Below, piece after piece: positions 3,992-53,501 of a stretch of 64,000 nt of DNA (the first letter of the stretch is position 1; every line of letters begins with the position of its first letter). Made by a program: the position numbers and the translations under genes. The stretch is from Auricularia sp. M13. Its lineage: Eukaryota; Basidiomycota; Agaricomycetes; Auriculariales; Auriculariaceae. Location: positions 372,001 through 436,000 of the forward strand of contig CM073200.1 in NCBI GenBank assembly GCA_037042915.1, written 5' to 3'. Under the pieces are notes generated by a model, which saw only the letters and a list, made by a program, of their open reading frames with translations, was not told the origin of the DNA and searched no databases.

Positions 3992-6385
3992 TCATTCACC
4001 GGACCTTCCGGCGTCATGCATGGGGAGCTGTACGAAGGGGCTGGTGGATCTCCGGCTCGCAGACCTCAGCTGCTGAGGCGGAGTTAAACCAGTAGGCGCT
4101 GTGGTAAGCGAAACTTCGGGCGAGATAATGCTATCGATCTGCCCGAACTTGAACGCAGGAATTGACTGCGCTTCGCCTGCGTCTGCACGCGCGCTCGCAG
4201 GATCCGTGGGACTTGGTGGTCGTGTTGCTGGTCCTACGCTGCGCGCTCTCGGCCGCGAATGACTCGGGCGCATCGGCACTGGACTGTTGGGGCGTGACCG
4301 CGACATCGGATGTCGTAGAACGCTGCCACTGCCGAAGGAGTGCGTGGTCTGGTGGCCCTCGGCTCGGCCATCTGAAGTCGAGCCTTCGACGATGGGCACA
4401 AGACGCACACCACCAAAGCACCAGCCCGCAATGTAATTCTGAGCGGGCTGGCTTATGTAGAAGCCAACGGCGCCGGGCTGCGTGAGTTTGAGCGTACGCG
4501 ACTTTGCATGGATCTCCGTCCAGCCGCGACCACGCTCGATCTGCCAGTCGCGCTCGGAAACACTATGCTTGACTGCGCCGCCGCGGAAGAGTCCAAGGTC
4601 GGCCAAGGTCGCGGGATCTGCCTGGCCTGTCTTAATTTTGTGGTACTGGAAATCGATGTCCTCGCGAGGGCTACCTGCAATGAGGAATAGATCTGGATGC
4701 GCGTATAGCCCTGCGCCGTCAAGGTCGTCGTAGTCGGGTGGCTCTGAACCGGTTGCATGCTTGGGACACTCGTCGTCGGACTGGCTCGGGCGCTGCTTTC
4801 CGGGTAACTCCCCGAAGAAGCATAGTATCCATATCACGGCGTACTCTCCAGCCGGAACGTTGTGGTCGAAGAGACGCAGGCTGACGTTCAGAGGGTTGCG
4901 AGCACACACCACGTGATTGCCAATCGGTTTGACGTCGACGAGCGAGTCGGCTGTATGCTCAACGTCTGGCGGATAAGGGACTGAGGCAGTCACGGTTTCG
5001 AGGTACCAAGGACGGCGGTGCAGTTCCCTGTTCCAGTGCGACTTCGGGATGCTGCCCTTATCGTGCGGCACAAGAAATGCGCCGAAGTCCAAAGGCTGGC
5101 TTCTCCAGCGCTCTTCGAACACTGCCTGAGCGCAACGATCCAGCGACCTGCGTGCGTCGACGCCGTCAAGATACCGGTTTGTCGCAATATACACGTCGTC
5201 GAGCAACTCATAGCGGTCGAGGCGGATATGGGACAGATCGAGATCGACGTTAAAGCGGAAGTACCGGCCTTCGGGAAGTTGGGACGCAAGGTTGGCATGC
5301 ACGGTTGCAGTCGACGTGGCTAGATGCGCCAGTGCCCGAGCAAGTCGTAGAATATATAGGATGCGCAGGCTCCACCCGTGAGAACTAATGGATTTCTTGT
5401 CCGAGAGGCCAGCTGTACAGTACCAGCTTGGTAAGCTAAAAGATTTGAGGCAAGGTAGCGCATTGTACTCACTACCAACTTAGACACGATGAGGGGTTAG
5501 CCGACCATGACTCTATGTCGCACCAGCTCATCCCGTGCCAACTCCGCGGGGTTGTTGTAACCAGGCCCTCCGTCCACTGTATAATCATAATATGCGCGCG
5601 CGGACTCGTGAGCTGGGAACAAAGCGGCCCGTTCTCTGTGACTTACCAAACTCTACCAATGGTGCACCTCTCTCGATTTGAAGTCTGGGAGGCTTAAAAA
5701 ACGTAGGAGCCGCAGCGGTTGCCCATGCAGCGTCGGTAATGAAGCACTTGGCCGCGGCGTGAGCAGGACCAGAGCTATATGAACGAAGCAATCGCGATCG
5801 TCCGTTGATATCCTTCGCCACGAGAGTCACGACAAACACCTTGGTGGCCTCTTCAGCGTCGTGGCGATGCATCTCATGCTCGTCGTTCGATGTTGAGTCC
5901 TTGGGGGAACCGAGACGTCTCTCAACAACCGAGTTGACAGCCTTTCTCAGACGGCGAGCGTCGAAGAGATACCGACTGAACAATCTGTTTCGCTTTCTGA
6001 ACACGGAAGCAGAGAGGCTCAAGTACTCGGTAACTCATTCGTCGACAGTCATGTCAAGCCGACCAAGCACTTCGTATGCCATCTCCGTGTCAACTTGAAG
6101 GAGGAGGTTAAGACCGCACGGCTTACTGATGCATGTGGCTATGAGCCCGCCCGTGCTGGTCCCACAGATAAGTTCGAAGTAGTCTCGCCGTAGGGCCTCT
6201 CCTTCTGGGGCTATCGTGTGAGGAGGGAGACCTGTGCGCGCTGCTACTGTGCACGACCGCTGTACTTCATGGACGTAGATGCGTCTCATGAGGCGCTGCA
6301 AGATTAAGAGCGCGGATAACCCGCGAACTCCCCCGCCGTCAAAAGAGAGGATCTCAGACCTTGAGGAGGTGGGTAAACGGACCAC
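3992..6385 (-). pseudogene. Patatin-like phospholipase, copy A, broken by two in-frame stops
   Basis: Tandem paralogue of the gene at 6756-9079. It keeps the patatin oxyanion motif GGGVRG, the nucleophile motif GTSTGG and the DGG of the catalytic dyad (VDGGPGYNNP), so the N-terminal half was an acyl hydrolase. Exon borders match copy B. Compared with B, a TGC Cys codon has become TGA at 6037-6035, just after the first intron, and a CAA Gln codon has become TAA at 5499-5497, next to a 6-base deletion. The C-terminal half (5302-3992) is a long open frame of about 436 codons and looks little decayed. No ATG is found in frame at the expected start; the frame opens at a GTG. Either the gene is a recent pseudogene, or only the 3' part is still made. 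Confidence 0.8.
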
Positions 6386-6755: not shown

Positions 6756-9079
6756 CTACTCTCGTTCACCAGACCTTCCGGCGCCATGCATGGGGAACTG
6801 TACGAGGGGGCTGGTGGATCTCCGTCTCGTAGCCCTCAGCTGTCGACTCGAACTTGAAACAGTAGAAGTTGTGGCCGGCGAATCGAACTGCCTAGTAAAC
6901 TGGTGCGCAGGGATTACCGGGAATGCGCTTGTGTCAGCGCGCGCGCTCTCCGGATCCGTGGGATTTGAAAGCCACGTTGGGCCTCCAGTATAGGAACTCG
7001 GCCGTGAAAGATTCAGTCGCGGAGGCACGGGGCCTTCCGCGCCCAACGTCGCAGTGCTCGCACTGGCAAAGGGGAGCGTAGCCTGGTGCAAAGGGCCCGG
7101 TCGGCCGCGGCCGTCTGAAGTAGGATCTTCCGGCTCGAGACGTACGCCGCCGAAACACCAGCCCGCGATATAATTCTGAGCGGGCTGGGAAATGTAGAAG
7201 CCGACGGCGCCGGGCACCATGACTATGAGCCTACGCGACGCCTTAATCTCCACCCAACCGCGACCACGCGCTCTCGACCAGTCGTCCTCGAAGAAACCGT
7301 GCTTTACTGAGCCGCTGCGAAAGAGTAACAAGTCGGCGTCGGTCATGGGGTTCGCGTGGCCCATTTTCACTGGGCAGTGCCGGAAGTTGATGTCTTCGCG
7401 AGGGCTACCTGCGATGACGAACAGGTCTGGGTGTGCATGCAGCCCTGCACCGTCGAGGTCGTAATGCGGCCGTGAACCGGATGTGGGCAGCTCGCCGAAG
7501 AAGCACAATATCCACACCACGCTGTACTCTCCGGCCGGTACGTTGGGGTCGAACAGTCGCAGGCTGACGTTCAGCGGGTTACGACTGCAAACCACGTGAT
7601 TGCCAATGGGTCTGACTTCGCTGCGCTTGACGCCGCTGGGCGGGTCGGGCCCGGACTTGGAATGCTCGACGTCGGGAGGATAGGGGTTCGACGCCGTCAC
7701 TGTTGTAAGGTACCAAGCAGGGCGGGTCAGGTTCATGTTCATGTCCCCGCCAGTGTGCGCGTGCGACTTCGGAATGCTGTGCGGCACAAGAAATGCGCCG
7801 AACTCCAAAGGCCTGCCTCTCCAGCGTTCCTCGAATACTGCCTGAGCACATTGATCGAGCGATGGGACCACGTCTTCTCGCATGAGATATTGCCGGGTGA
7901 CGTCATAAATGTCATCGAGCTTTTCATGGCGATCGAGGCGGATATTAGCCAGGCCATGATCGACGTTGAAGCGGAAGTATCGGCCTTTGGCAAGGTGGGA
8001 CGATAGGTTGACATCGACTTGTGCAGTCGTCGTGGTCAGCTCCGCGAGTGCGCGACCAACTCCTATTTTATATAGGATTGGCAGAGTCCATCGACGAGTA
8101 CCAATGGATTGCGTGTTCGAGAGGCCAGCTGACGCGCGGTAAGCTCGAGAACTTGAAAACTAGCCAATCATTCTGTGTACTCACTTCCAATGGAAACGAT
8201 GAGGGGTTGCCATCCGCCAGACATGGCTTTGTGCCGCTTCAGCTCATTCCATGCCAATTGCGCAGGGTTGTTGTAGCCAAGCCCTCCATCCACTGCATAA
8301 AATGCTAGCGTGAGCACTGGGGTCAGATAGTTCGTCATGATTGTTTTCTCACCATATTCAACGAAGGGTGCATCCGTCTCGATTTGAAGTCTGGGAGACT
8401 TGAAGAAAGTGGGGGCTGCAGCTGTTGCCCATGCAGCGTCGGCAATGGAGCATATGCATATCCCCGCAGCGTCATCAGGGCGAGAGCTGTAGGAACGAAG
8501 CAGTTGGGGCCGTCCGTCGAGATTCTCCGCCGCGAGAGTCACCACGAATACGTTCGTCCCCTCTTGAGTATTGGGGCGATGCATTATGTGCTCGGTGAGC
8601 GGCGGCGCCGGAGTGCCCAGGCGCTCTCGGACAACCGAATTGATTGCCTCTCTCAGGCGGCGAGCATCGTAGAGATACCGGCTGAAGAACCAGTTGCGCT
8701 TGCCGAATACGGAAGAGGAGAGCTTCACGTAGGCGGCTATGCATTCTGCGGCGGTCATATTCAGCCGCGCTAGCACTTCACAAATCAGCTTCAACTACAA
8801 GACAAAGTCGCGTGGCTTACTAATTGCTATGAGGCCACCAGTGCTGGTGCCACATACTAGCTCAAAGTAGTCTCGCGGGAGAACCTCTACCTCCGGATTC
8901 TTCTTCAGAGGACGAAGGCCGGTGCGTGCTGCGACTGTGTTAGACCGCTCCGCCTCAAGGTCCCTTATACGATCCATGAGGCTCTTGAGGATCAAGACCG
9001 CGGACAACCCGCGCACTCCCCCACCGTCGAACGATAGGATTGTGTTTGTGGGTGAAGGGGAGAACGGGGCACTCGCCAT
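6756..9079 (-). CDS. Patatin-like phospholipase with a long C-terminal domain, copy B (intact)
   Basis: Predicted Ser-Asp lipid acyl hydrolase. The ATG near 9079 begins MASAPFSPSP. The patatin signature follows: SFDGGGVRGLSA (oxyanion loop), CGTSTGGLIA (nucleophile Ser) and VDGGLGYNNP (catalytic Asp). Introns were placed at conserved points: after GGLIAI (GTAAGC...GTGAAG), after FVEY (GTGAGA...ATGCAG) and after SIG (GTGAGT...AAATAG). They give an uninterrupted reading frame. The last exon encodes a domain of about 400 residues with GEYSVVWILCFFGELP, GWVEIKAS and GFYISQPAQNYIAGWCFGG, which I do not recognise, ending in a Ser/Pro-rich tail. No signal peptide is seen, so it is probably cytosolic. 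Copy A lies directly downstream in the same direction. Patatin assignment is firm; substrate unknown. Confidence 0.85.
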
Positions 9080-20232: not shown

Positions 20233-20989
20233 ACCACCCGCTTTGCTTGTTGCATCCCTCGCGCCTTCCTCCCTTGCATGCCTTCCATCAAAAATATATG
20301 TCGCTAGGTTGTATGAGAGCAATCGTAACGCACGCACGACACCCGGAAGTTGAGCACTGTGGTTGAACGACTGCTTTGGCTGTTTGACAAGAGGCCCTGA
20401 GGGCAAATGAACTCTATTTCACATCGTCGTTCGTCGAATAACGTGAAGTAAGTAGCCTTAGCCTACTCTCCTCCGGGGTGCCTGCGCGCCGTTCCTTCTC
20501 GCCAAATTCGGTGTCTGTGGTCCAGTCGCATCGAGCCGAGAGTTGTTTCCGCTGCGTACATGTCCTCTTGAACAGCAGACTCTAACTTACTCGTGACGAG
20601 TCTTGCGCAACAGTGCAAGCCGAGGATGGTCCCGCGCACAACGGCTCGACCGCGCCGACGTCTGAGCGAACAGTGGCGTCAGAGGTCAGGCCTTCAGGCA
20701 TTGAAGCAAGTTCTCAATCTCCTGTGTGCGAAGTTCATTGCTTCCTTTGTCGTCTCGCCTCAGCGTTGCCCTCAGCACGCGCCGACTTCACTTGAGCTTG
20801 TTTCATTTCGAACTATGAGTATGTAGCTCAGCCCGCTCACGCCGCTCAGAGTCAGATCGTCACCGCACGGAAACGCCAAATTCATTCCCGAAATGGCTTA
20901 CATCGAGGACTTGAAGGATGGTTCATCCAGCACCGGAAGACAACTTGGGATGAGGTTTTAAGACTACGGCCACGAAGTGCGCGGCGGCG
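20233..20989. other. Intergenic stretch, nothing supported
   Basis: 3' flank of RPS15 followed by sequence without recognisable coding, tRNA or repeat content. Short frames at 20593-20826 are unsupported. Confidence 0.5.
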
Positions 20990-21545
20990 CCGCTGTCGCG
21001 CGCAGCCCCAGAGAGGATGGCGGTCGTCTACCGGTCGCCCGTGCCCCTTTTGCCAGAGCCGCCGCGGCCGCAGTACAAGGAGCGCGAGACGATCGCGGCT
21101 ACGGAGTCGGACCCGCCGACCGCGCCCTACGCAGGTGCCACGTGAGGCGCTTGTCGCAGCACGTCGTGCAGCAGCACGAGTTCCCGTACGCAGAAAGGGC
21201 GGGCATTCCGTCAAGCCCAGCCGCAGGGGAGCGCGCGGAGCCTATATTGCCCACGCTGGTGGCCATGTCCATCAAGGAGTGCGCGACGGCAGCCGAGCTT
21301 GCCAACATCCGTCTGGCATCACGAAGGAGCAGACAGCCGGCGCACCTCTGTGCCAAATCCCGCTGGAGTTCAGGACGAAGGCTGACCGCGAGCACGAGGC
21401 CAAGGAGAAGGTCGCGGCAGTCGCTACCCAGAGACTAGGATAGAGATAAAAGCGTCTCGCCCGTTGACGGGCAGAGGGCTGCGCAGGCGTCCGAATTGGC
21501 GGTCAAGGATACCACGCAGGCTCTGGCGCAAGGATGTGACTTATA
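20990..21545 (+). pseudogene. Decayed fragment of the MAP kinase C-terminal tail (copy 1)
   Basis: Reading across three frames recovers the C-terminal extension of the kinase at 50989-53501. At about 21015-21090 comes MAVVYRSPVPLLPEP (parent TAVVHESPVQLPPDS), then VVQQHEFPYAE (parent AVQQYEFPSTE), ILPTLVAMSIKECATAAELA (parent MLRTLSTVSVKERGTAAALA), IPLEFRTKADREHEAKEK, and near 21465 PVDGQRAAQASELA (parent PVDGQKAAQTAGLA). Frameshifts and stops break it and the kinase domain is absent. It lies tail to tail with the type I gene at 21649-25023, as the real kinase does with a type I copy at 47.5-50.8 kb. Confidence 0.85.
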
Positions 21546-21648: not shown

Positions 21649-24600
21649 CTATCGTCGATTCTCATCCCTCTCCCAAAAGGAAGGGTCGTCCGATTCCAAA
21701 ACAATGCGCTGCTCCTCGGCCGTCCAACCAGACTTGGGATCGTCGTCTTGCAGTTTGCGTCTCATCAACTCCATCCGCTCAGGCTCCATCAAGAGCGCAG
21801 CGAGCCGCGCCGCGTGCTGCGTACGGACCCATAGCACAAACGTCGAGTAATTCAGGGCCCCTGTTGGCGTGGAGATGTCGTACGCTCTGCAGTTCAACTC
21901 CAGTATGTGAACCTAGCACGGCAGTCAGCGTGCGAACGCCGGAATCGACGAGTCTTGCCTTATCCTGAGCGCCATCGGTGCCTTTATCTGCCCACGACAT
22001 GACGACTACCCCAACAGTCCCCTCTGTCAAAAGACCGAAGACAGGGAAATCGAAGATTCCCATGAAGGCCAAATACTTCACAGCCGCAACCAAGCATACA
22101 CGAAGCCGGTTGCTATCCGCAATCTTGAATGGCTCGTGCTTGGTGCCGTATACGGTGACAAGCAGAGGAAATGAGCACCACGGGGGATCCTGGTGCGCTG
22201 ATCGATTCGAGGCCGATTCTTGACGCGTCTTGGTTTCTTGAGTAGCAACGTCGACTATAAAATGGTTAGCAAAGCGGGCAGCTATCTGAGGTCACTTAGT
22301 ACCATGCGTACTCCTCATATTCTCCGATGGAGCCATGTGATCAGGGTAGTCGTGATGGCAGGTTCGAATCATGTCGAAGGTGTCGTAGGCGAGCTGCGCC
22401 CGCGGCTCAACATCGTCAGAATCCCAGTCTGTTTCGCCGTGAACATAACGGTCTCCAGAGTCTCTGAACCCCGCAATCAAACAGCGCTTCGAGATTGCAG
22501 ATGATAGAGGGTGATCGCGAATAGCGAGCGCGATAAAATTATCGCAGTGAGCGGTCAATGGCCCGTGCATAGCACGCAGTTGTGTATCCTCCGTTTCAGA
22601 CTGCCAAAGGCTGCAGTCAGAGATAAACCTATTTTTCGCCGCGCAAATCTTGCTGATTACAGCTGCGTCGCCGTCACGGTCTAATAGTGCGCGAACGGAG
22701 TCGAAATCGATTGTGTGTTCACTGTAGAAGTTCCACGCGCTGAGCCAAGCTTCTCTCGAAGAATCATGATCGGGTATAGTATCCATGTAGTCGTTCCTTG
22801 GTAGCCGAAAGACAGTATCACCACTGGCAAGCCATGAGCAGACAAAAAACAGTCTAAGTCGTGCAACATACGTTTGATGAATGGAAAATGCAGCGGTGGC
22901 AGGCACATCGAGCCACGAAAGCGTATCCCAAAGCGCCCTTCGCGTGGAATAGTTGATGAGCGGTTTGTCCATCGAATTTTTTGCCAGAGCGGCCATTTCG
23001 AGAATTATGCCGAGATGCCTATCCAGAGCGGTACTAACGACGTCGTCAGGGTCGCGAGCAGAGTCCAGGATCATGCTGCTCGTGCTCGTGCTAGCGAGAA
23101 TCAACCTTTCTCTCGCAGTATTATGGCGAGGCGGAACTTGAGGGACACATGCCTGCGAGGGCATCAGATGATGCAAGCTGATTCCCGAGTTCATACCGAG
23201 GTCCGCCATTGGCACGGCCAATGATACCGCGTAGCCAAGTGGTAATGCTTAAAGAGCGCCAGATATTCGCGAGAAACGGCTTCGCTCAACGACTCGGTGT
23301 TGTCGTGCAACTTGGCTTTAGGGGGAAGCACGTCGTACACAGCAAATCGGTCGAGAAGCCAGGCCGCGACCGCCGTTGGATGACGATTTCTTTTCTCTCG
23401 CATGGCCAAGAACCTGGACGGCGTCAGGGATGTGACATTGAGCATCGAAACTTACATATGCAAATTTCGTTCGCAAAAGTCGGTGCTGGCTCAAGGATTT
23501 AGTTACGTATCAGCGACTGAGCTTGAGTGCGTCAGCCTTCGCCTCCAAGTGTGCAAAAGCATAAGACTCACCGAAATAACGGTGCTCACAGGCTCCGCTC
23601 GCTCCATTGTTCCAGTGAACTGCATGATCAGTATACGTAATAGCCTCCACAAAATACACCTACTAGAGCCTATTGTCAGGATGCGAAGGGTTGACCATCT
23701 CACTGCAGGACAGTAAGCGTTGCGACAAGTAGCATAGATAGACTGGTACCGACCAACGATACTGGTCAATATTATGGACCCATGCGCTTACATCTTTCAA
23801 GCAGTTTTCCGGCGGCTCGCATTCCTGATCAGCGCGCCAACATACGAGCTCATCATCCTGAATGGGCTGAGCGGCACTGAGATCTGGAATGATCAAGGGT
23901 TCAAGTGATAGCAAAAGCTGCGCAAGGCAGAGCGCTGCCACGGGATTCGTAAGAGAGAATATTCCGTTTGCGGAGCCGCCATCCATGGACAGTGGTGCGT
24001 GTAGGACGTGCATCTCTGGCTGGTCGCAAATTAATAATACACAGCACATCTCAGCTGAAATAACGCACCAACTGCCCATCTAGCGTCTCATCGTCGTCTA
24101 GCCAGGCAACAATGGTTTGGACAGAACTAGTATGGGCCATGTAGCTCAAGCCCAGCACAGGCGTGCGTATGCGCCAAGCTAGCCGTTGATAAAGAACGCT
24201 GGACAGCACGTCATAAATGGCGTTCTGAGTTGCCAGGGCAAGAACTGCTATCGAGGGGGTGGATACGTTGGCAGCGTATAAATGATACTGCTGGGAGCGC
24301 GCAAGTGGCGCGGGTGCAGCATTTAGAGTCTCATATGACGGGGGAGGGATCCGAACGGCTGGGGTGCGCCGTAGCCATTCGGAAAGGTAGTAGAAGCTTG
24401 CATATGAGGCGTCGGCATCGTCCATGGGAGTAGATGATGCGCTGGGATGCACGCTAGGCATCGTTGCGGCGCGAGGCACATCACAAAACGTCTGCCATGC
24501 GTACGGTAAGGAGATTGCGGCAATGCAAGCGGCGGACGCGTGCATGGGATGAAGATTGCTGAAAGAGGACAACGCGGCAGGGTACTTTCGGAGAGCATAT

Positions 24601-25023
24601 CGAACATTGTCCCTGGCAAATGGTATTAGCCACGTAAGCCGCCTCCAACTCCATAACGTACTGGACGACGATCTTCGTTTCATACCGAGCCAACACGACT
24701 TCAATAAAGAGAGTCAATATCGAGTTTGCAGAACCGAAGGGATTCGAGGCTTGGATATCGATGCTACCGGTCTCGCGAACAATCCATAATACGCCATCAA
24801 GAATATCCAGCAGCTGTCGACCAATTCCAGAGAGTGAAGCGTAACGCTCTTGGAGCTCGCTCGAACTTCTGGCTGCGTCAATCGTTTCCGCGATGTCGAA
24901 CGGTAAAGGCTTTGTATAGAGGCTGACAAGATGCTGAACCGTATCAGGAATCGAGTATGTCGCGTCGCCCAACCAGTGTTTCCGAATGTACGGATGGTCT
25001 GGCACGACGGAGAGGAGCGGCAT
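21649..25023 (-). CDS. Type I unrecognised large multi-exon protein, copy I-A
   Basis: I do not recognise this family. Four copies occur in the window. The ATG at 25023 begins MPLLSVVPDHPYIRKHWLGD, and short introns separate the blocks. Conserved across copies: SSVLYQRLAWRIRTPVLGLS near 24.2 kb; CWRADQE near 23.85 kb; WLLDRFAVYDVLPP near 23.35 kb; YHWPCQWRTS; and a C-terminal domain with FPLLVTVYGTK, IADSNRLRVCLVAAVKYLA, GIFDFPVFGLLTEGTVGVVV (22.1-22.2 kb) and ELNCRAYDISTPTGALNYST. Its N-terminal part differs from the other copies and may be more complete or mis-modelled. No signal peptide or membrane segment is evident. The C-terminal domain is shared with the type II genes but lacks their E-x-K and Q-x3-Y residues. 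Most exon borders were not checked base by base. Confidence 0.6.
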
Positions 25024-25539: not shown

Positions 25540-27841
25540 ATGTCCAATTCCAATGCAGGATCCAGGTGCGCTTTCGAAAGGCTGACCTTTGATATAACTG
25601 ATACCAATTCAGTTATCTATCCGTGCCTACCATTTCTGGAGGAAAGGTTGGCAGCCACGAAGCTACACGGTACGTCGACCTGACACTTTGCGACATCACA
25701 CTGTGACCTGATCTCGACGCAAAGTTTCTCAAAGTTAGTCCTTGACTCCCTCGAGTCTGAAGGGATTCTGTGCTCATCATATATTCCTAGTTGGTGTGGA
25801 GCTAAGGAGGGCACCACATCCGGCGTCGACGACCCTCCCAGTCTCAGATTGTACACGGAGGCAGCCTACCGCCTCACACAGATCCCGACCGTACTCTGGG
25901 CCGACGAAGAAGCATTGAAGAAATTATTCGCGCTCAATCTTGAATTTCGGCAACATGAGAAACATTATCGCATGCTACGGGAAGCCACACGCTTTCGCTG
26001 GAGCGATAAGCTCCAGGTAATCCCTCTATTGGCACTCTCCGGCTTCGCGTATTTATTCTTATGCAGGCAGTCCTCTCATCGTGTTTGGAAGGTCCCGGCG
26101 CTGACACTATCGCGAGTGACATTCAGATGTTCGCCTTCAAGCTCCAAACCGCTGTTCGTGGGCGCGCTGAACATCGAGAGATTCACAACCATCCATCCGA
26201 TTTCGCCGATCTTGGTCCTGCTGGTCCAGCCATTGAAACGTTGCTGGCTCGGAAGCTTCGCCGATTGCTCATCTACGTCGTATCGGCCGCTGGTTTCCAG
26301 ACTATCATGAGATTCGGTGCATATGACATAGTCGAGGCCGAAGTGCGAACGAACATCGATTCCATTATACGGTACTTCCTGAATGATGATAAAGGCAACA
26401 TTGTTACCCTGTGAGTGCTCATGCGGTCAATTCATGGTCCCAGGATTTGGGCTCATTCTTCATCGCAGTCAGGAGCGTACGTTGAACCTTCCTCGGTTTT
26501 CCTACTTCGACGCTGTTTCGAAGGGGAAGGCCCCTCGAGACGTCGACAACGCGCTTCAGACGCAATGCGATGGGCATCTGGCTATCCAGAGGGCAGCTTT
26601 CGCTGAATGGACTGTCGCTCGGCTCCAGAAAATCTACGGCGTTTCCGATGCTCTCATTAAGGCGTACGCGGACGAACTCAAGCGGGGTCTTCCCAGTTTA
26701 CTCGAGGCGCAGTTTAAGCGGTCGGAAGCGACTATCACTTCATGGGAGGACGCGAGCAGTAACTATCACAAGTACATGCAGGAATCTCCTCGGGTTGCTC
26801 GATGCGATTCTGCCACGTGCCTGAGGATCACCCCGAATTTCTTCACCAGTCGCCAAGTCAAAGAGAGCCTCACAGCAGTCTTCGCAGACAAAGAGCTCAA
26901 AGATCGACTCACACGCGAATTTGCCCTTGTACGCCTGACCCAGGCGGAAGCCGAGCGTAGCTTCTCAACTGGCAAAGTCGACGACGCGGCGCCGAACTCG
27001 AAGATGAAGCGGAGTGACTTCCTTGGCCGTATCGTCGATACGTCAGAGGGGCAAGACATTATAGGAACGGCGGTGTTTGATGCGGGTGAGTGATTCAACT
27101 CCTACCTTACCAAACGAGGCTAATAAGTTTTCAAGAGCGGCGTAACGCTGCGGATGCACAGACCTCTGACCAAGAATACCGTAGCGAGCAAGTTACCCAG
27201 GTAGGTTGATTACGTTCAACCTTTTGGCAATGTCTGCTCACGTCAGTGAAGGGTCAAGGCCAGACGGGCGCACCTCCTCTCGACGACGTCGACGCCTATA
27301 ACGGCGAGAACACTGCTACCAACGATGCGCTCCTCATTCCAATCTTGATGGGCGAGAACAAACGCCTCAAGTTGTCGTCCTCTTTTGATGTCAGGGGTCC
27401 CAACCAGGAGAGGATGTACGTATTCGGCGGCGTTCGATTTTTGAGGCTTTTCGGCATCCACAATATGCCCGTGTTTGGCTACGTCAGCGAGGGCAACACC
27501 ATAGCGATTTCATACGCTTGGTCAACCGTCAGCCCTGATCGGAAAGCTGCAGTCCCACACTCGGTAAGTCACCGATTTCTGGACACTCAAATACTCACTT
27601 TCTGTAGACCTGGATCATTGAGCGCAAAACCGTCGTTTATCAGCTCAACGTCCCCGCAGACGCTCTTAACTTCGCTACTTTCCTTGCATGGATCAAGCAC
27701 AAGCATATTCCGGAGCTTCGCGAGGCTATCAAGGCGAATGAACTCGAGTTCCTCAAGTTCGTGAACGCAGCTTTGTCAAAGGACCCCGGAGAAACGCACT
27801 GGACTCAGTCGCACCAGCACCCGCCAAAGAAAGCAAGTTGA
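25540..27841 (+). CDS. Type II unrecognised protein with RecB-nuclease-like C-terminal domain, copy II-A
   Basis: Family not recognised; paralogous to the gene at 60244-62615. The ATG at 25540 begins MSNSNAGSRCAFERLTF. Later exons give YTEAAYRLTQIPTVLWADEE, then from 26065 a block ending DDKGNIVTL, joined by a GTGAGT intron to QERTLNLPRFSYFDAV. A long exon to about 27089 holds LTQAEAERSFS. The C-terminal domain has LIPILMGENKRL, then NQERMYVFGGVRFLRLFGI, MPVFGYVSEGNTIAISYAW, and after one intron TWIIERKTVVYQLNVPADAL, stop at 27841. E-x-K followed by Q-x3-Y resembles motifs II and III of RecB-type PD-(D/E)XK nucleases; nuclease activity is only inferred. Borders near 25.67-25.73 kb and 27.18-27.25 kb are uncertain. 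Confidence 0.6.
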
Positions 27842-39843: not shown

Positions 39844-41157
39844 ATGGCCATCCTGCACCCGCCACATCCTCATGTCGTGACCCACCGCTGGGACGATGCA
39901 TACCTTTCGGATATTGCTTCCGTCATATCCTCTCTGTGTCGCCGTCCACTTCCTGACCGAGCCTCCGAGGATGTGGAGCTTCCTGCAGTACCCCCCAAAA
40001 CACCTTTGACGCTGCGCGGACCCAGAGCTCGTGTTGACATGCCTGTTGATGATACGAACACGCTCTCTGACTCGGATTTCCGGAACACTATCTCTGCTCT
40101 TGCTACGAAGCTGTCTCGTTATAGGAGGACGACCGGCTCCCTCAGTGAACATTTGCGGCGCGGAACGGACGCTTTCCTACCATATTTCGTTAGCACATGC
40201 ATTTCAAGGTGCTTTAGCAACGCCATTTCATAGTATGTCGTCGTTTCTGTGCTGTTATGACAGCTCAATATCTTTTGCACACTGGCAGTGATAATATATG
40301 GATCGCGCTTCGTAAACTTCCACCCCATCTCTCTGAATACGCAGGCCTGGCAGAGAAATATCTTCGTGTTCCGCTGCTTGTCGTGCTTCCCCTACCTCAT
40401 ATGGGCGATGTGGCTCGTCTCCCTGCGCTTGTCGACTCGGATGGCTCGGATTCTGAGCCATCAGAGCGACGTTCGGGTCCATACATCACTGTCTCCAAAT
40501 TGCTCGAACATCAGACTACGTGGAAGAAGCCCGTCGAACGCTTCGAATGGAAAGACCTTCCAGTTGCACCCACGGGACTCGCTATGCATCGTGTGCTCTC
40601 CGCTGCCGAGTCGCCCATCCACTCGCTGTGTTATCGTAGTTGCAGACTGCGAGAGCATATGCGATTGCATGTCTAGCGCTTTGTATCATCGCCTTGAATG
40701 GAATGTTCGCAGCCCTCTTGTTGGCTTGTCCTTTTCCCGTGATTCCACTGTTGTCGACCTACACGTCGGGTGGCTCGAAGATACAGCCGAGCGTGTAGGC
40801 GATCTTGTTTGTGATGTCCATCTTCCCCCTTGGCCCTTGCTAATACCTGCGGAAAGCCACGGGTTCATATCCTTCAAGCAAAATCTCGTGCTGCCGAATG
40901 CTCATTCCGCCTCGACGATGCAGAAGACGCCTTGATCTTAGCGCGAGTCTTACTCTCGTTGAAGGATCAGATTGAAGATGACTATAGGAGAGCGGAGCTA
41001 GTCAGGGAAGACGCGATTATTCCGTGGCGAGCTGATCAAGAATCCCCGCAGATTCCAACCTGTTCAAATCGATGGTCATACGATTCGACAACTAGAGCAA
41101 GAAGACCCAACGTTCAACGACATAGTCGGCCTCGATGATGACACGGAAGATGGCGAA
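39844..41157 (+). pseudogene. Type I family, copy I-B: truncated and frameshifted
   Basis: Begins MAILHPPHPHVVTHRWDDAY, parallel to VVTHDWDYEGRP of copy I-D. After the first intron it reads DNIWIALRKLPPHLSEYAGL and VERFEWKDLPVAPTGLAMHR. Between about 40600 and 40635 the frame shifts: upstream AAESPIHSL is in one frame, and the conserved VIVVADCESICDCMSSALYH is in another. A normal intron then leads to PRVHILQAKSRAAECSFRL and EDAIIPWRADQE. The whole C-terminal half of the family is missing; similarity ends near 41050. The last bases contain an alternative open frame ending in an acidic stretch (NDIVGLDDDTEDGE) whose origin I cannot name. Confidence 0.75.
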
Positions 41158-41254: not shown

Positions 41255-41735
41255 AATTTTATATTACTCTTATTTCTCAAGCAAGCAAGGCAATCCAAGC
41301 AAAAGCGTCTGAGGGCCTACGATAAAAGGAATCAAGAAACTTCACATCCAGGCGGCGCATCCTTGTAGTCCGCCAGAACATGCGGGACGTCCTTGAGCTC
41401 TGCGAGGCCCGATGTCTGCGCGGACTTCTACCTGTCAGTGGGCGCGACGGCATTCTTCCCACTTTCGACAGCTTGAGCGCCGTTCTCCGCCTGATCAGCC
41501 TCGGCGGCGGCGGCCATCTTCTTCTCCTTAACCTCGCGCTCGCGGTCGGCCTTTGTTCTGAACACTAGCGGGATCTCGCTCGGCGGCGCGTCGGGCGTCT
41601 GGTCCTTCGCGAGCTCAAAGCGGACGTCGGCGAGCGCGGCCGCCGTCCCGCGCTCCTCGGTCGCAGCGTGGGCTCCGGCGCGCTCCCGCTCCCGGCGCGC
41701 TTGCGGCTCGGCCTGAACATGTACTCCGGCCACGC
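41255..41735 (-). pseudogene. Fragment of the MAP kinase 3' end (copy 2)
   Basis: Matches the C-terminal extension and 3' flank of the kinase gene at 50989-53501: ERGTAAALADVRFELAKDQT, PPSEIPLVFRTKADREREVK, and ADYKDAPPGCEVS with the same stop. Similarity continues into the 3' UTR ('tttctcaagcaa'). A TAG interrupts the frame where the parent has Gln in VDGQK. Similarity stops abruptly at about 41735, where the P-loop-kinase segment begins. It lies tail to tail with copy I-B. Confidence 0.88.
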
Positions 41736-41736
41736 T

Positions 41737-42390
41737 GCCTATCCGACTTACAAAGACATGTGAATCAAGAGACAGTATCATTAGGAGCTTGCCTATCAAA
41801 GCGGTTAAACAGAAAATTAAGCCCTCACCAGACTGTGTCCCGCATGCGGCGGAAAAACCCAATGCAGCCTTTGAGATTGTGAACCCGACGGTACTGTGAA
41901 TGGCGCCTGCGCGACATTGGAAGTTCGCGGAATTGCGAAGAGCGGCCGGCCTAATTACTCTCACGCAGCGCCCGGACGACGAAATCCGCGCCGTAGAGAG
42001 TCCGGTTCCCGCGCATACGCCGTGAGCTGTGCGCGCGTCGTGCGAGAGGTGCCAGCCGTGGAGCCCGACGACCGCTGCAACATCTCCGCCTTCGCTGAGC
42101 GCATTCACTGATTTCGTCGATTTGCCGCTCGCCGGTCCGCCTGAGATACCACGAGCAGTCGCCTACCCGGCCCAGCGCGCGCAGGCTTCTTCGCGTCTAG
42201 CTCGCGCGCCAGGGCGCGATCGTAAGAGTCGAGTGTGTATCGGTCCGGTAGTCTCGCAGGCTCGCCCTATCGCACTCTATCGCACTTGTGTCTCTATATC
42301 CCTCGTGAGCACCAAGAAAGACTTCAAAAGGGCTGCATGGACAACAGATGCACAAGGCATTGAACCTGTGAAGAGCACAACGGACGGCAT
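41737..42390. repeat. Segmental duplication R, copy 1 (upstream region of I-C)
   Basis: Direct repeat with 45977-47320. Long near-identical runs include 'gcttgcctatcaaagcggtt', 'gaacccgacggtactgtgaa', 'cgtggagcccgacgaccgc' and 'ctctatcgcacttgtgt'. The repeat ends near 'gcattgaacctgtga', just ahead of the I-C start. It includes the P-loop kinase fragment. This copy lacks the two inserted elements found in copy 2. Confidence 0.9.
41880..42240 (-). pseudogene. Fragment of a P-loop (uridine-kinase/YFH7-like) kinase, copy 1
   Basis: On the minus strand LARELDAKKPARAGPG leads into a Walker A region that copy 2 preserves as VGISGGPASGKST. Copy 1 has lost one base inside it. VAAVVGLHGWHLS follows, a motif typical of the YFH7/uridine-kinase-like P-loop family. 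Only the N-terminal part is present and the frame is broken. Confidence 0.65.
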
Positions 42391-42451: not shown

Positions 42452-45400
42452 ATGTCTGGTCTCGTCCCAAATTACCAAGACGTCGTCCTCCACAACTTCG
42501 CCGACGTGGGGCTTCCCCCACTTGCATGCCATGTCTTTGCAATCTGCGCGCTACCGCTTCCAGACGCTGCTGTGCAACGGGTCAAGCACTTTGCTCGTCG
42601 TTTCTCTGTGCCTCCGTCAGGGCGAGTGGCTAGCTCTCTGGATTCCGTTGTGCACGCTGATTATGCCGGAAGTCCTCGCCAAGCCCAGCCCACTTCTCGT
42701 TCCAGCACCGAAAGGCTCGACGCGCGACTCTTTGATATCGTTGATGCCGTGTTACTCGTTGCCGTCAGAGTCAACGAACTGGCCGAGGAGGACGTTTCAC
42801 ACCGCCGTGTGTTGCCATTCCTGAAATTTCTCGTGGCTACATGTCTTATGTCCGCTGTCGATGGGGCTGTTTTGAGGTACGCTTTTCACGCTCGAACGTT
42901 CTCCGTTGTGCTCACTTGGACATCAGTGATGATACGTGGATCGCAGCGCCCAAGCTACCGCCTGCGATGGCTGAATTTTCTCGGTTCGCGCAGAAATATT
43001 CGCAGACCCCCTTGCTTGTTGCGCTCCCCCTTGAGCACCCCGAGCTCTCGCACGTGATCCCAGGGAACCCCGCCCGTCCTGTCTCCGACGAAGGCTCGAA
43101 TCTGGATGCCAGCAGTACGACCAGCAGTACTCCGTCAAATTCAGACCTCGCTAAGTGGCTTGCCAAGCATCAGGCGAAGCCGCCCACGATCCAGTTTGAG
43201 TGTGACGATGGGCCGCCGGCGCCGTTGCATGACGGGATGCATCGAAGTATCTTTGCTGCCGCGCCGCCAGCGCACCTGCTTGCAGCCCTCGTCGTTGACC
43301 ATTGCGATAGGATCTACAGCAGCATGAGCAGCGCGTTGTATCAGCGCCGGGCCTGGAACATCCTGACGCCGGTAGTCGGCATATCGTTCTCGTATGATTC
43401 GACCATGGTCCGCGTTCTAGTGGGTTGGTTGGGTGGCCGAGCGACAGACGATGGGCATCTTGTTCGTGGTGTCCTCGTTCTTGATGACTAGTTGCTGACC
43501 CGCCATAACAGCCTCAGGTCCACATTCTGCACGCGCCGACATCGACCAGTCCGGATTCGGAGGCCCGTGTCGCGCAAGGACTCTTCTGCCTTGCTGACCC
43601 TGTGCACGCACTATGCTTGGCGCGCGTGCTAATCTCTTTCAAGGATTCTTTTGAAGAAGACCGACGGAAGTCGCAAGTCATCGAGCAGACACCTGGCCTC
43701 CGTTGGCGTGCTGATCAGGAGCCTGACGTGAAAGGGACAAACTCGATTTGGTCTTTGGAAGCTGTCCGTCGGTGGTGCTCAGGCGTGGACACGCAACAGA
43801 GGTTTGTCTATCAGTTGCCCCCTCCCCATGGCTAATTGTCTTTCTCGTCAGCCCGTTTCCTTCGAGTCCGACTGCGTCTTCCGAAAGGTAGGCATGCGTT
43901 AATTTATGGTTGTTCAAGTGCAACACTTACTGTAGCGCAGGAACCAAGAAGACAGGTGTGCCATGTCGTGAATGTCCAGGCCTGAATGTGTTAAATATTC
44001 TCGCAGCGGGTCTAGCGTTCCTTCAGAGGCGTTTACGACATACTCGTTTGAACAGTACGTAATGTATCGCAAGTTGAACCTTTCATGACACCTTGAAGGT
44101 ATATTGGCTTGAAAGAAACCAGAGCACTGGCGTCACCACGAATAGCATTTTGGCTGCTGGACCGTGACGTGGGGTTCCATTCGCTTCCTCCCGTCTCTGC
44201 GTACTCGGACCCCGCAGCGCAGCCACTGATTACGTCCGATTGTCTTCGTCCACACCTGCCGCTCTTCGACACCTACAGGCGTGCAACCCGTTTTCGCTGG
44301 CCGCATTTATGGGACTCCTCGGTAAGCGACTTTCTGTACCCTCGGCACCATCCTGAATGGTAATCGTAGGATCGCCTACCCGTCGTTCCCTCTTTCCTCC
44401 ACAATCTCAAACAAGAGCTGTTCATGGCGTATCGAGCCCAATGCCAGTCTGCCGAGCCGCACGAACAGATCATCGACCCGGAAGCTCTCGTGAACGCGGA
44501 AGTAACGTCTGCACTTGAACAGTGCTTGCCGACAATTCTGCAGGTTTGTGCTTTGGCACGGTCGTTGAACGCGTCCTCTATCTCTCAACGGTATCGATAC
44601 TGTTATGATATGCTCTTCGGGATCTCTGCGGCGCAGAATGGAGTGCGCTATATGTGAGAACACAGACTACGTCTGCGTTTTCTGAGTCTGATTTTTGATT
44701 CTCTACAGTCCCAACGCAAGCCTGCGCCTTTCGCGCAGCAACCTCATGGACAATCTCGTTGGGCTTCCCGGAAAGGCGACGGTCTCGCATTCATCAACCA
44801 TGCGCTGCCGGCAAATGCAATCGCAAGATGCCGAACGACAACTATTCGCAAGCAGGGACGAAGAATTCCGTAGGCGTATCCACGCAGTACACAGTAATCA
44901 TATGACGGATGTTATCGAAAGGAAGACGACTATTAGAGAAGCTCTACGACGCGCTTGCGAGGCCCCGGTCATCGGCACTTGCGACCACGTGATGGTGACA
45001 TGTCAACCTCTTGGGTCCGCGAGTGGACGAGGACAGTGCCCATCTATTCTGACAGGCACCCTGAGCTCAGGTAACCCTGATTTTCCGGTCCCTCTCCTTC
45101 CGTCGTGGACCACATTGGATATTAACCACGACTACCTTCTGCGGAGCTATAATATCCTGGCTACTGTGCAGCACGAATATCCTATTATGACCGATACCTG
45201 TCGCGTTGCAGGCAATGATGTAGCAGGCAAGTGCCATCGCCCTGTCAGCTGCGGACTGTTCATTAACGTTGACTTTCTCTTCAGCCAATTTTCATCAACC
45301 GCCACTGCATCGCAGGCCAGAAATTGGCGAGGCCGTCGGAGACTTGAAAATTCCATTGCTCGTCGTCGTCCACGGGATTCGAAGAATCCGGTTCAACGTC

Positions 45401-45892
45401 GCAGACAGCAACAGACTTCGCATGTGTCTCATGTCCTCCGTTGATTTTCTGGCGTCCCTACAGGTGTTTGACTTTCCCGTATTCGGCATTCTGACTGAGG
45501 CATCGATTTGCGCCGTGGTGATGGCATGGGCAACGAGAATCGACGGCCAGACTGAAGTGCGCTCGCTCCCAACGCTGCGTATTTCAAACTAATCTCAATT
45601 TCATGCCTAGCTCCAAAGGATGGAATTAAATTGCAATGCATACGACATTTCCGCCCCGGCAGGCGCTTTCAACCTTGCTACATTCCTTTTCTGGCTGGAG
45701 TTTGAGCATGCGCCGAGGCTTTCGGAAGTTCTGAACAGCACAAAAGGTCTTGCTTCCCTTCGGCACGATTCAAAGGCGCGAGATTTCCCTTCGGGTTGGG
45801 CGATGGAAGACCAACTGCTGGATCTCAAGCGGCAACGGGATGCCATATCCAAGCAAATGAAGATCGAAGATGATCAGGATGTCGACGACTAA
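42452..45892 (+). CDS. Type I unrecognised large multi-exon protein, copy I-C (apparently complete)
   Basis: Best-preserved member of the family on the plus strand. The ATG at 42452 opens MSGLVPNYQDVVLHNFADVG. Splicing GTACGC...CATCAG gives SDDTWIAAPKLPP. Next come MSSALYQRRAWNILTPVVGI, PQVHILHAPTSTSP after a 46-nt intron, LRWRADQEPD, YIGLKETRALASPRIAFWLL, RVCALARSLN-like LQVCALARSLNAS, RYRYCYDMLFGIS, PNASLRLSRSNLMDNLVGLP, and a C-terminal domain IPLLVVVHGIRRIRFNVADS, RMCLMSSVDFLASLQVFDFP, ICAVVMAWATR. After the last intron it ends with ELNCNAYDISAPAGAFNLAT and an acidic tail, stop at 45892. An intron at 45227-45284 starts GCAAGT. I found no clear frameshift, but not every junction was checked. 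No function can be assigned. Confidence 0.65.
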
Positions 45893-46530: not shown

Positions 46531-46694
46531 TGTCAGAATCTCGGTCGACGGGTGCAGGGACAGATGGTAGTATTCCGTTTGTCTACGCATACAGACACGG
46601 TTGCGGACAAACGGATACCGGAATCAGGGGCAACTCCGATGCCCATATGAACGGAGCACGGACACAACCCGAAAGATAAGATAGAATTCTCACA
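46531..46694. mobile_element. 164-bp MITE-like element with short inverted repeats
   Basis: The ends are TGTCAGAAT (left) and ATTCTCACA (right); the second is the reverse complement of TGTGAGAAT, 8 of 9 matching. The element is flanked by TGTGT on both sides (46526-46530 and 46695-46699). The paralogous segment at about 42285-42300 has a single TGTGT and no insert, so the 5-base target duplication is directly visible. No coding capacity. Confidence 0.85.
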
Positions 46695-46770
46695 TGTGTC
46701 ACTATCTCTCTCGTGAGCACCAAGAAAGTCTCCACAAGGGCTGCACGGACGACAGATGCACAAGCCATTA

Positions 46771-47298
46771 CAGCGGCTCTTCTTTTTCTTGGCCGCATCA
46801 ACTTTTTGTGAAACGCGAAAAGAGTCGTCCCAATTGGGACACCAAACACCGTTTTGCACCGTCTAACACGCCAAGAATAGCTCCCAAGCCAGGTTTTCCT
46901 GGCGGAGGCTCAGAACACACCTTTGGGTGACCCTAAGTCCGTAGAACTTCTCAATATGACCGAAGGACGTATCCCGAACGCTCAGATGCTGCCCGTTGTC
47001 TCGACATGGGATTCAACCAGGCCCGTTCAGTGTCCAGTGCATTCCGCTCACTCTGCTCACGTCTCACTCGCAATTTTCGGTGAGGATTACTTATAATGCT
47101 GAAATATGAACATTTCACATGCTTGGCATGCACATGGACGCGCAGGACCATCGAAAGTACATCTGGACGCTGCTGGACGGTCTGCCGGTGCATCCGCCGG
47201 GCTCCAGTTTGCATCGCCGGTGTTTGGCGTCCCAATTGGGACGACTCTTTTCGCGTTTCACAAAAAGTTGATGCGGCCAAGAAAAAGAAGAGCCGCTG
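46771..47298. mobile_element. 528-bp element with 81-bp inverted repeats and TA target duplication
   Basis: Left repeat 46771-46851 and right repeat 47218-47298 are inverted copies with one mismatch, both beginning CAGCGGCTCTTC. TA flanks each side (46769-46770 and 47299-47300). The empty paralogous site near 42358 reads catt-gaacctgtga where the filled one reads catta...taaacctgtga. Long inverted repeats plus a TA duplication fit a non-autonomous Tc1/mariner-type element. No transposase frame is present in the 366-base interior. Confidence 0.87.
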
Positions 47299-47505
47299 TA
47301 AACCTGTGACATGGTCTGTTGTTTCCCCGTATCAATTGCCTCTTCGGCGTTCAATCAAATTCCATCTCAGGGCGCACGCGAGGCTAATCCGATGACATGT
47401 ACACGTTGCTCCATCAGCATGCGGACGATCCCGCCCGGATGTCACTCCGAGCTTGATTCCGGACGGCGGTGTACCTACCCCCAGCTCCTGGTCTACCTCC
47501 TCGTC

Positions 47506-50500
47506 ATGTCGCTCCTGCCCCTACCACAGTCCCAAGTTGTAACCCACGACTGGGACTACGAAGGCCGCCCGCAGCTAGCCAATTTTATCTTGACTATCAA
47601 AGGACAACCTCTCCCAGACGTCGCTACCGAAAATACAAGGCCATTCACAGTACCAGCTAAAACGCCGCGTTCTTGCCCTTCATATCTGTCTAACATCGGC
47701 CAAACCGTGACTCTCGTGGATATGGTCTCTGCTGGCGATGCTCTCTTTGATTTGGAGTTTCAAGACCTCGTCCTAGCCTTCGCGGCGAAGTTGAAGAAAA
47801 CACTGACCTTGACCGAGGACTTCGGTCGCGGAATGCACTCGTTTCTTCCATATTTTGTGAGCGCATGCGTTTCACGATGTTTTCGCAAAGCCACCTGCCA
47901 GTAAGTTTCCTGGTTCAAGCTCTTCATATGGCTTAATGCTTTCGCGCAGTGATAACACATGGATCGCGCTTCATAAATATTCCGCCCGTATTCCCGACTG
48001 TGCTCAGTTGGTGGATGATTATATTCGCGTTGCTCTGGTCGTGACAACACCGCTACCCCATCTAAATCATCTGGACCAGCTGCTCCCCGCGCCGCATGAC
48101 GTCGAACTCTCGGACTCGCAGTCTGAACAGGAGGAAACGGTGTACAGCCGTATTCCACCCTGTCGGAAATGCTCGCCCAGGAGATTTGGGTAGAGGACCG
48201 CGTTGAACGTTACGATTGGAAGTACAGTCCAGTCGCGCCGAAGAATCCAGCCATGCACCGTGTCGTCTTTGCCGCCGACCTGCCAGCTCCCGCACTTTGC
48301 GTCGTGGTGGTTGCGGAACGTGAAGTCATCGGTCATGCAATGTCGAGCGCACTATATCATCGTCTCGCTTGGGGCGTCCGAACCCCGCTTCTTGGTCTAT
48401 CTTTCTATCACGATTCAAGCCTGGTCAATCTTCACGTTGGGTGGCTTGAAGGTGCGACTGAAATTCTTAACGGTATTGTTCGTGTTCTTTTATCCCCTCA
48501 GGGTTATTATTCACGCCTTACGATAGCCGCGAGTGCATATTCTTGGATCTGGGTCAAACTCGCCGCGACATGGGACGGGATGGAAGACTTCAGACTTATC
48601 TTTCTACATCGACGACCCAAACGACGTTCTCGTCCTTTCGCGCATCTTGCTCTCGTTGCATCGGTTTATCGAAGACGACTGTCAAGCGGCTCATGTCGTT
48701 CAGCCAGATGCGATCATTCCCTGGCGAGCCGACCAGGAACCTCTGCCTAAAGAATCTACGCACACTTGGTCGCACGAAACCATATCTAACTGGAGCAAAT
48801 CAATCATTGCTGGCGATCCGTTTGTGACTTACAATAATCTCGAATTACACTAACAACATCGCAGCAATGCTCTGTCCGCCTCCTGTGATGACGACTCGGA
48901 CGGTGGCTTGTTTCTTGAGCATCCTACGGCATACTCCTTCGATCAGTAAGTACTTTCTGCTTCGTCAGCAAAATGCGAGTGGAATGACACCAGTCCTCAG
49001 GTTTGTGGCCCTGAAAGAGAGGAATGGATTCTCGCCGACGGCGGTTTCACTCTGGCTCATGGACCGTTTCGTGGTCTTCCATCCGCTTCCTCCCATTGCG
49101 ACATCCTACGACTTGAAGACATTTGGCTCCCTTATGAATCGGTTCCAGGCCCAGGTTCCAGTTTTCGATCTTTATCGCACCGCAACCTGTTTCAAGTGGC
49201 CTCGCGCATGGCAAACCCTGGTGAGTCAGCTGACTCGGAACACGACCGGCATTAACATCGCCCAGGGTGATCTGCCAGCTCTTCCCCGTTCACTATTCCG
49301 GCCTGAAACATGAGCTTTTTTGCGCAATTCAGTTGGCTGCAAGCCAGCCCTCATACGGCGCGCGCGTGGCACCGTTACCCCAGGAGGCGGACTTGAACCT
49401 GGAGCAGGAACTCAGCATGGTCCTCCGAGTCTGTGCGTTGGCACGGTCGCTCAAGGAGGCTTCGAGCACCCAGCCGTATAGCTACTGCTACGACATGCTG
49501 TTCAGCATCCTCCCTCCTTGTGACGCGGTACAACTGCTGTGAGAAGTCTATTGTTGCTTCCAGCCACATTGCGATGCTCATCGTCCTGCTAGACCGGGCG
49601 TCACCATTCGGTTGTCAAGGAGTAGTTTTCTTGACAAGATTGCGAAGGGCCCCGCAGGCTCCGTTCTCTCCGAGGTCACTACTATCTACAACAAGCACTG
49701 CTTGTTGCAAACGGTGGAAGTTCAGCTTTTGCAACAGGCTGACCGGCGGCGATATTATCTTTTGCGACGCGCACTGCAACGCTTTGGGAACGACAATTCC
49801 GACTGGCCCGCGAATTGTACTAAGGGCCAGCAGCGTGTTCTCCAGGCGCCGACCTCAGGAACGTGCGACTCCGCCATCGCGGCGCGCTTTCACGCTAGGG
49901 GACGTCCAGACACGGAGGAGATGCCAGCGCCAGCCATAGTCATCGGCCAGTCACCAGGCTATACTTGCCCTGCATACCCTATTCCCCACTGGCCCGCGCC
50001 GGAGATATTCTCTGCATATACCGCGGAACAACGGACTATGACTTACGACATCATGGCCACCGCCCATCACGATTACCCTTCCTCGTCGGGAATGGACATG
50101 GAGGACAACTGCACCTACCGTCAGTACCTGCGAGCTCTGTTCTTGTGCACTCATTCAGACCGCGCAGCTACGGCAGATGACAGCGCAGACGACAGCTTGA
50201 TGTGGACACCCCAGGAACCGACCCCGCTTCCCCAGCACGATCTCGATGTTCCGGTTCTTTTCGTGGTCCACAGCGCACAGCGGGCCCGCTTCCATATCGC
50301 GGACAGTAACCGCCTACGCGTGTGCCTGACATCTGCCGTCCACTTCCTGGCATCGCTGCAAATCCTAGATTTTCCACTGTTCGGCCTCTTGACGGAGGGA
50401 ACGCTTTGTGCTGTCGTCATGGCGTGGTGTTCCCAGTACGACGGAGAAGAACCACTCGTGCGTGCATCCCATGGCCTCTTGACAAGGAGTGCCGCTCACG

Positions 50501-50790
50501 ATCCGATACGCACGCAGGTTCATTTCCTCGAACTAAACTGCACCTCGTACGACATCTCCGTTCCCGCGGGCGCGCTCAATCTTGCGACATTTCTCCACTG
50601 GCTTTACTACGTGCACGTTCCGCAACTATTGACGCGCCTGGATGAAGTCCATGCCCGGGGCGACTTCTCTGCGAAGCATGGGAACAACGACGGTTCTATG
50701 TGGTCGGCGGAAGATCAGCTTCGCCAGCTATCGCAAGGCATCTCGCCTTTCGATCAGGTTGACCATCTGAGCGCTGAAGCTTCTGAGTGA
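47506..50790 (+). pseudogene. Type I family, copy I-D: full length but frameshifted
   Basis: The ATG at 47506 begins MSLLPLPQSQVVTHDWDYEG. Nearly all family blocks are present: HSFLPYFVSACVSRCFRKAT, DNTWIALHKYSARIPDC, YDWKYSPVAPKNPAMHRVVF, MSSALYHRLAWGVRTPLLGL, PRVHILGSGSN after an intron ending CGATAG, AIIPWRADQE, FVALKERNGFSPTAVSLWLM, RVCALARSLKEA, YSYCYDMLFSI, and the C-terminal VPVLFVVHSAQRARFHIADS, LQILDFPLFGLLTEGTLCAV and ELNCTSYDISVPAGALNLAT. At about 48153 one T is missing compared with the family pattern (VYSRI continuing to STLSEMLAQE only in the next frame). This frameshift would stop translation early. A sequencing error cannot be excluded. It lies tail to tail with the MAP kinase gene. 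Confidence 0.65.
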
Positions 50791-50988
50791 CCGATAGAGG
50801 GATGAACAGAGTCGTGCTATATATGCAATATATGGCCATGCAGCCAGCGGGAGATGGTGCGAGTTCCGTCGCAGAACAGTGTCAGCCTGAGGGATAGCTC
50901 GTTGAAATATTGTATTATACTCTAATTTCTCAAGCAAACAGGGAAAGTCCAAGCAACAGCGCGTCTAAGGACCAACGATCAAAAGGAA

Positions 50989-53501
<2,513 letters not shown>

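Follow-up and report, generated by a model that had tools for sequence, protein, structure and literature searches.

Two types of gene in a tandem cluster of Auricularia sp. M13 and a RecB-like E-x-K ... Q-x3-Y pattern kept in one of them: possible divergent nucleases and pseudonucleases

A cluster of related genes on contig CM073200.1 (C8) of Auricularia sp. M13 falls into two types, and the question that it raises is whether the C-terminal part of one type (type II), in which an E-x-K is followed by Q-x3-Y, could be a nuclease domain, and what the other type (type I), in which this pattern is replaced, would then be. A Q-x3-Y placed a short way after (D/E)-x-K is a mark of RecB-type nucleases. 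The window, that is, the whole stretch of DNA analysed, comprises 64,000 nucleotides (C8 bases 372001–436000) of a genome of 52.1 Mb that is made up of 14 contigs; positions are those of the window unless marked C8. Its gene content and short GT-AG introns suggest a filamentous fungus, probably a basidiomycete.

The first type II gene, II-A (25540–27841, forward strand), is a single open frame from ATG to stop that encodes 659 residues in seven exons (25540–25669, 25739–26016, 26067–26410, 26469–27085, 27136–27200, 27252–27563 and 27608–27841), separated by GT-AG introns of 44–69 bases, the fifth of which (27201–27251) was placed by hand. As the original prediction stated, it reads MGENKR (27348–27365), a candidate E-x-K (E513, K515), and then NQERMY (27402–27419), a candidate Q-x3-Y (Q530, Y534). 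II-B lies on the reverse strand (60247–62200); its last four exons were modelled (61658–61734, 60975–61613, 60549–60891 and 60268–60489), and its 5′ part is homologous to II-C to at least about 62190. Its own candidates, HEYKRP (60741–60758) and NQAMMY (60696–60713), are likewise read in the sequence, and the pattern F-x-V-[FY]-G-x-x-x-E-G...AW follows the motifs in both genes, just as had been described. A third type II gene, II-C, found about 83 kb past the window end (C8:519442–521284), carries E-Y-K and Q-L-R-I-Y; the models of II-B and II-C are incomplete at their 5′ ends. Upstream of these motifs, a C-D pair (26803–26808 in II-A; 61223–61228, reverse strand, in II-B) is identical in all nine aligned genes and offers a candidate metal-binding aspartate, which in II-A would be the motif II Asp (codon 26806–26808).

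Within the sensitivity of the searches, the family occupies a single locus. Protein searches of the own genome returned 9, 12, 9 and 3 matches for four shared-region queries and 9 for one type I N-terminal query; all but one lie at 393.7–521.0 kb of C8, the exception being a match of the N-terminal query (E 0.069) elsewhere on C8. Because this search scores the best candidates only, far-diverged copies may be missed. When the nine modelled proteins were compared by tblastn with C8:352–536 kb, 11 places were found between 393694 and 521284, within 128 kb, corresponding to eight type I genes (I-A, I-0, I-B, I-C, I-D, I-E, I-F and I-G) and the three type II genes. Every type II gene has a type I gene as its nearest neighbour in the family: between the head-to-head genes II-A and I-A there are at most about 570 bases; I-D is followed by II-B on the same strand after a gap of about 2.4–2.7 kb, which holds a kinase-gene fragment and a 164-residue open reading frame; and I-G is followed by II-C on the same strand after about 1.5 kb or less. 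Such pairing is not improbable inside a local cluster.

In the window, type I is represented by I-A (21694–24969, reverse strand, 5′ end not fixed), I-B (42452–45889, forward) and I-C (47302–50787, forward), together with I-0 (39844–41096, forward), which holds only the N-terminal part of a type I gene and is truncated before the core. The last exon of I-C (49593–50787) contains the shared region from L-x-L-x-R onwards; at about 48140–48180 the same gene has a 41-base intron or else a frameshift. Type I proteins measure 834–962 residues as modelled, with some ends missing, and their N-terminus is about 340 residues longer than that of type II. A stretch of this N-terminal part (for example 42928–43461) resembles the C-terminal core, with the pattern SALYQRxAW...TPVxGxSF..DS..V...V.WL. 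We do not claim an internal repeat, since the hhalign comparison of this stretch with the core was not significant: 21 of 100 permutations scored as high with the type I core, 19 of 100 with type II and 6 of 100 with both.

The part shared by the two types had been taken to be a C-terminal domain, which proved too short a description: the common region runs over about 480–540 residues, from Y-R...F-[RK]-W on. Identity in it is 17–21% between the types and 26–35% within type II. A tree built from this region has types I and II as the two sides of one branch, with a support of 100/100; the tool warns that II-A is a long branch in it. Three type I genes, I-B (42452–45832), I-D and I-E (both within C8:436624–446087), are close copies of one another. 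Their dS is 0.10–0.22 at the 5′ end and 0.7–1.5 in the middle; at the 3′ end I-B/I-E falls back to 0.25, and the two remaining pairs have 1.07 and 0.99. This variation along the gene suggests patchy gene conversion among the three.

Other features of the locus are also repeated. A protein-kinase gene, which we take to be MAP-kinase-like, is represented by its 3′ part at 50909–51786; two of its exons match Pfam Pkinase with E-values of 6.3e-6 and 9.5e-4, both under the cut-off. Partial copies with 67–82% DNA identity (41256–41734, 20870–21536, and from 63927 to C8:436202, beyond the window end) are interleaved with type I genes and may have travelled with them in local duplications. Between I-B and I-C lies an 84-bp inverted repeat, 98.8% identical (46768–46851 and 47218–47301); an 82-bp stretch beside it (46688–46769) recurs at 42280–42361 and upstream of I-D. 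Nearer the start of the window, two neighbouring paralogous frames (3995–5479 and 6759–8159, reverse strand) are 56% identical over 496 aligned positions and adjoin a patatin-like phospholipase exon (8171–8794). The FunK1 kinase family (PF17667) has four matches in the own genome, three over the cut-off.

Whether the candidate residues mean anything depends first on their conservation. All three type II genes, which are paralogues from one genome, agree in D, E, K, Q and Y. The original prediction had turned on conservation of E, K, Q and Y among orthologues; among these paralogues, all four are kept in every type II gene, although overall identity is only as given above. Columns identical in all three make up 70 of 383 aligned columns, and 35 of 144 in the core, so that the chance of all five named columns falling among them is P ~1.8e-4, and that of E, K, Q and Y within the core P ~3e-3. 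These values count all columns as equal, and they are generous, since E, K, Q and Y were named beforehand from two of the three genes and D was picked after alignment. The Q-x3-Y follows the (D/E)-x-K in all three, at a K-to-Q spacing of 13–15. On the alignment, conservation of the residue pattern in type II is greater than chance would give.

A quite different explanation is that the region is an unrelated alpha/beta fold in which the pattern is coincidentally conserved among three paralogues, both types being structural or interaction proteins. The joint conservation just described speaks against it. In its favour, the bare motif pattern appears in 3–6% of shuffled sequences (127 of 2000 for II-A, 111 of 2000 for II-B and 66 of 2000 for II-C), and one unrelated match is found in I-B; as the bare pattern is not rare within a single protein, it is conservation that counts. 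The spacing between D and E, 128–149 residues in type II, is unusually long and again favours an unrelated fold. Besides C-D, a P-x-L, a G, an E, a W and other residues are kept in all nine genes.

Six type I genes have the whole core (I-0, without a core, and I-F, a fragment, were left out), and they differ from type II at the motif positions. The prediction that the motif is kept only in type II stands for E, Q and Y, absent from all six; for K it depends on the alignment, since K is missing from six of six in the MAFFT alignment and from five of six when a one-residue shift is applied to the strand, in which case I-A, reading Y-G-T-K-H, has it. By MAFFT, all six show one residue type at each position, E being replaced by V, Q by R and Y by C, while the K column is S or G; under the shift the E column becomes S or G and the K column Q, R or K. 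As sequence, then, (D/E)-x-K is present in 3/3 type II and 0/6 type I genes, its placement on a strand being read across from a type I model, in which the aligned strand is short and its prediction weak. This joint loss of E, Q and Y counts against coincidental conservation in an unrelated fold. Type I has a conserved stretch of its own, [VT]-[VY]... F-x-[IV]-A-D-[SG]-[NS]-R-L-R-x-C-L, so that the replacements do not resemble decay.

Rates of substitution agree with this. By NG86, dN/dS is 0.32 for I-B/I-D, 0.32 for I-B/I-E and 0.30 for I-D/I-E, and 0.31 for II-B/II-C at a dS of 2.3, near saturation; these are averages between paralogues, and values near 0.3 argue for working genes. Since type I lost E, Q and Y at such values, the family can work without them. 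This is what would be expected if the fold were PD-(D/E)XK-like with no active member left: both types would bind protein or nucleic acid, and type II would have E, K, Q and Y as leftovers or for binding; the distance of the candidate D points the same way. The presence of all four residues in every type II gene at 26–35% identity speaks against that explanation, which we regard as unlikely.

A partial AlphaFold model bears on the fold itself. It covers the I-C core (168 residues; alignment of nine rows, all from the window) with a pLDDT of 62 and a pTM of 0.59, and shows a short strand (V-V-H), a helix, three strands and a long helix. Its first helix spans the position of Q-x3-Y, and it is this model that places the type II Q-x3-Y on a helix. 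Mean pLDDT is 63–87 in the blocks that hold the helices and later strands; at the E-x-K position the strand is only three residues long, in a block that averages ~52, a weakness that favours an unrelated fold. The element order after E-x-K counts against one: it would fit a PD-(D/E)XK domain in its latter half, an order that many folds share. The other four I-C core models average pLDDT 43–50, and a longer model that included C-D (pLDDT 46.5, pTM 0.25) was unusable. Foldseek with the I-C core model against PDB and BFVD gave no match at E <= 0.001.

The type II core, aligned by hhalign with 14 RecB sequences, mostly close relatives of E. coli, showed no profile similarity to RecB nuclease domains beyond chance: its score of 12.7 was reached by 54 of 100 column permutations of RecB, as compared with 57 of 100 for type I and 98 of 100 for both types pooled. 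The best local segment placed QAMMYLNAACHFLD over QYQLYTLALHRYLR, at the Q-x3-Y helix, with a score that was not significant. With RecB similarity at chance, it is conservation in three paralogues that carries the motif argument. Relatives of lambda exonuclease (80 loci, 98–99% identical to lambda) were too alike to serve as a comparison and were left out. Families of this superfamily usually share little sequence similarity (PMC1913061), and profile likeness is not strictly defining.

Pfam, PHROGs, NCBIfam and PADLOC yielded no convincing match (in PADLOC none whatever), the Pfam cut-off being unreached in the pieces searched, and neither did PDB searched by sequence, where a single II-B exon had a best E-value of 0.83. 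A PDB match of the nine-core profile to insect odorant co-receptors (E 7.5e-4) was judged a chance match to a membrane protein through hydrophobic composition. We also attribute to chance the matches, each in one of nine members, to DUF3258 (E 0.0052, 17.3 of the 25 bits needed), DUF4286 (E 0.0056), DUF7087 (E 0.09), NF005787 UbiH-like of NCBIfam (0.0049) and phrog_12897 of PHROGs (0.38), as well as the Pfam matches to PIP49_N (E 0.22) and DUF4048 (E 0.07); DUF3258 and DUF4286 each gave 0.028 in another Pfam search. IMG/VR gave no relative when searched with two single family proteins. In the own genome PF20516 (PDDEXK_12) had no match, and its control had none anywhere either, so that this search carries no weight. 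In the literature, no title among the matches listed concerned the present gene family, and the available part of a paper on fungal NLR effectors (PMC9815663) makes no mention of 'nuclease' or 'PDDEXK'.

The reading of type II as RecB-type nucleases is supported in part, by the E-x-K and Q-x3-Y of all three genes, the invariant upstream D and the fitting element order; it is weakened by the lack of a significant fold or convincing family match, the RecB profile score at its null and the D-to-E distance. These last points favour an unrelated fold, to which we give somewhat less than an even chance. The same holds for type II as divergent PD-(D/E)XK-like nucleases with type I as conserved pseudonucleases; the two are about equally likely, and we prefer the nuclease reading as the more specific and testable.

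If the nuclease reading is right, the type II C-terminus would most likely be a very divergent PD-(D/E)XK-like (restriction-endonuclease-like) domain, from which we infer catalysis and metal use: metal binding and the activation of water would fall to E and K on one strand and to the D upstream of them; the site would be supported, as it is in RecB-type nucleases, by Q-x3-Y on the helix that follows, and the protein would cut nucleic acid. Type I, with E, Q and Y uniformly replaced, would comprise conserved pseudonucleases with a binding or regulatory role. Local duplication at one locus presumably expanded the family. Against the nuclease reading stands the small sample of only three type II sequences from a single genome.

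Known systems offer partial likenesses. As in E. coli RecB, D ... (D/E)-x-K would be followed by Q-x3-Y on the next helix and by further strands; unlike type II, RecB has its acids 13 residues apart (G-F-I-D...L-D-Y-K). The REase domains of eukaryotic Crinkler/CR effectors, likened here by description only, are also eukaryotic, multi-copy, nuclease-like and C-terminal, and in many cases a P-loop NTPase or kinase domain accompanies them (PMC5289972); neither was found in the family pieces searched with Pfam. Fungal Dis3/RNase II pseudonucleases (PMC8097288) are inactive nuclease relatives kept in fungi; they belong to a different nuclease family and are a precedent for dead nucleases only.

Were the fold wrong, the cluster would be an orphan tandem family, a kind common in fungi. 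A cooperation of the two types may also be imagined: a divergent type II nuclease with catalytic activity and a conserved type I pseudonuclease partner encoded nearby would form a fungal module of two genes, copied and diversified at one locus, that would act in self/non-self recognition or in the control of invading or mobile DNA; we hold this improbable as a whole, and a role in defence, allorecognition or element control is speculation. If the fold is true, the locus would represent a family of eukaryotic nucleases for which Pfam has no model (in the pieces searched), in which live-looking and dead-looking paralogues adjoin one another in one genome, and it would provide a natural test of how pseudonucleases originate and act.
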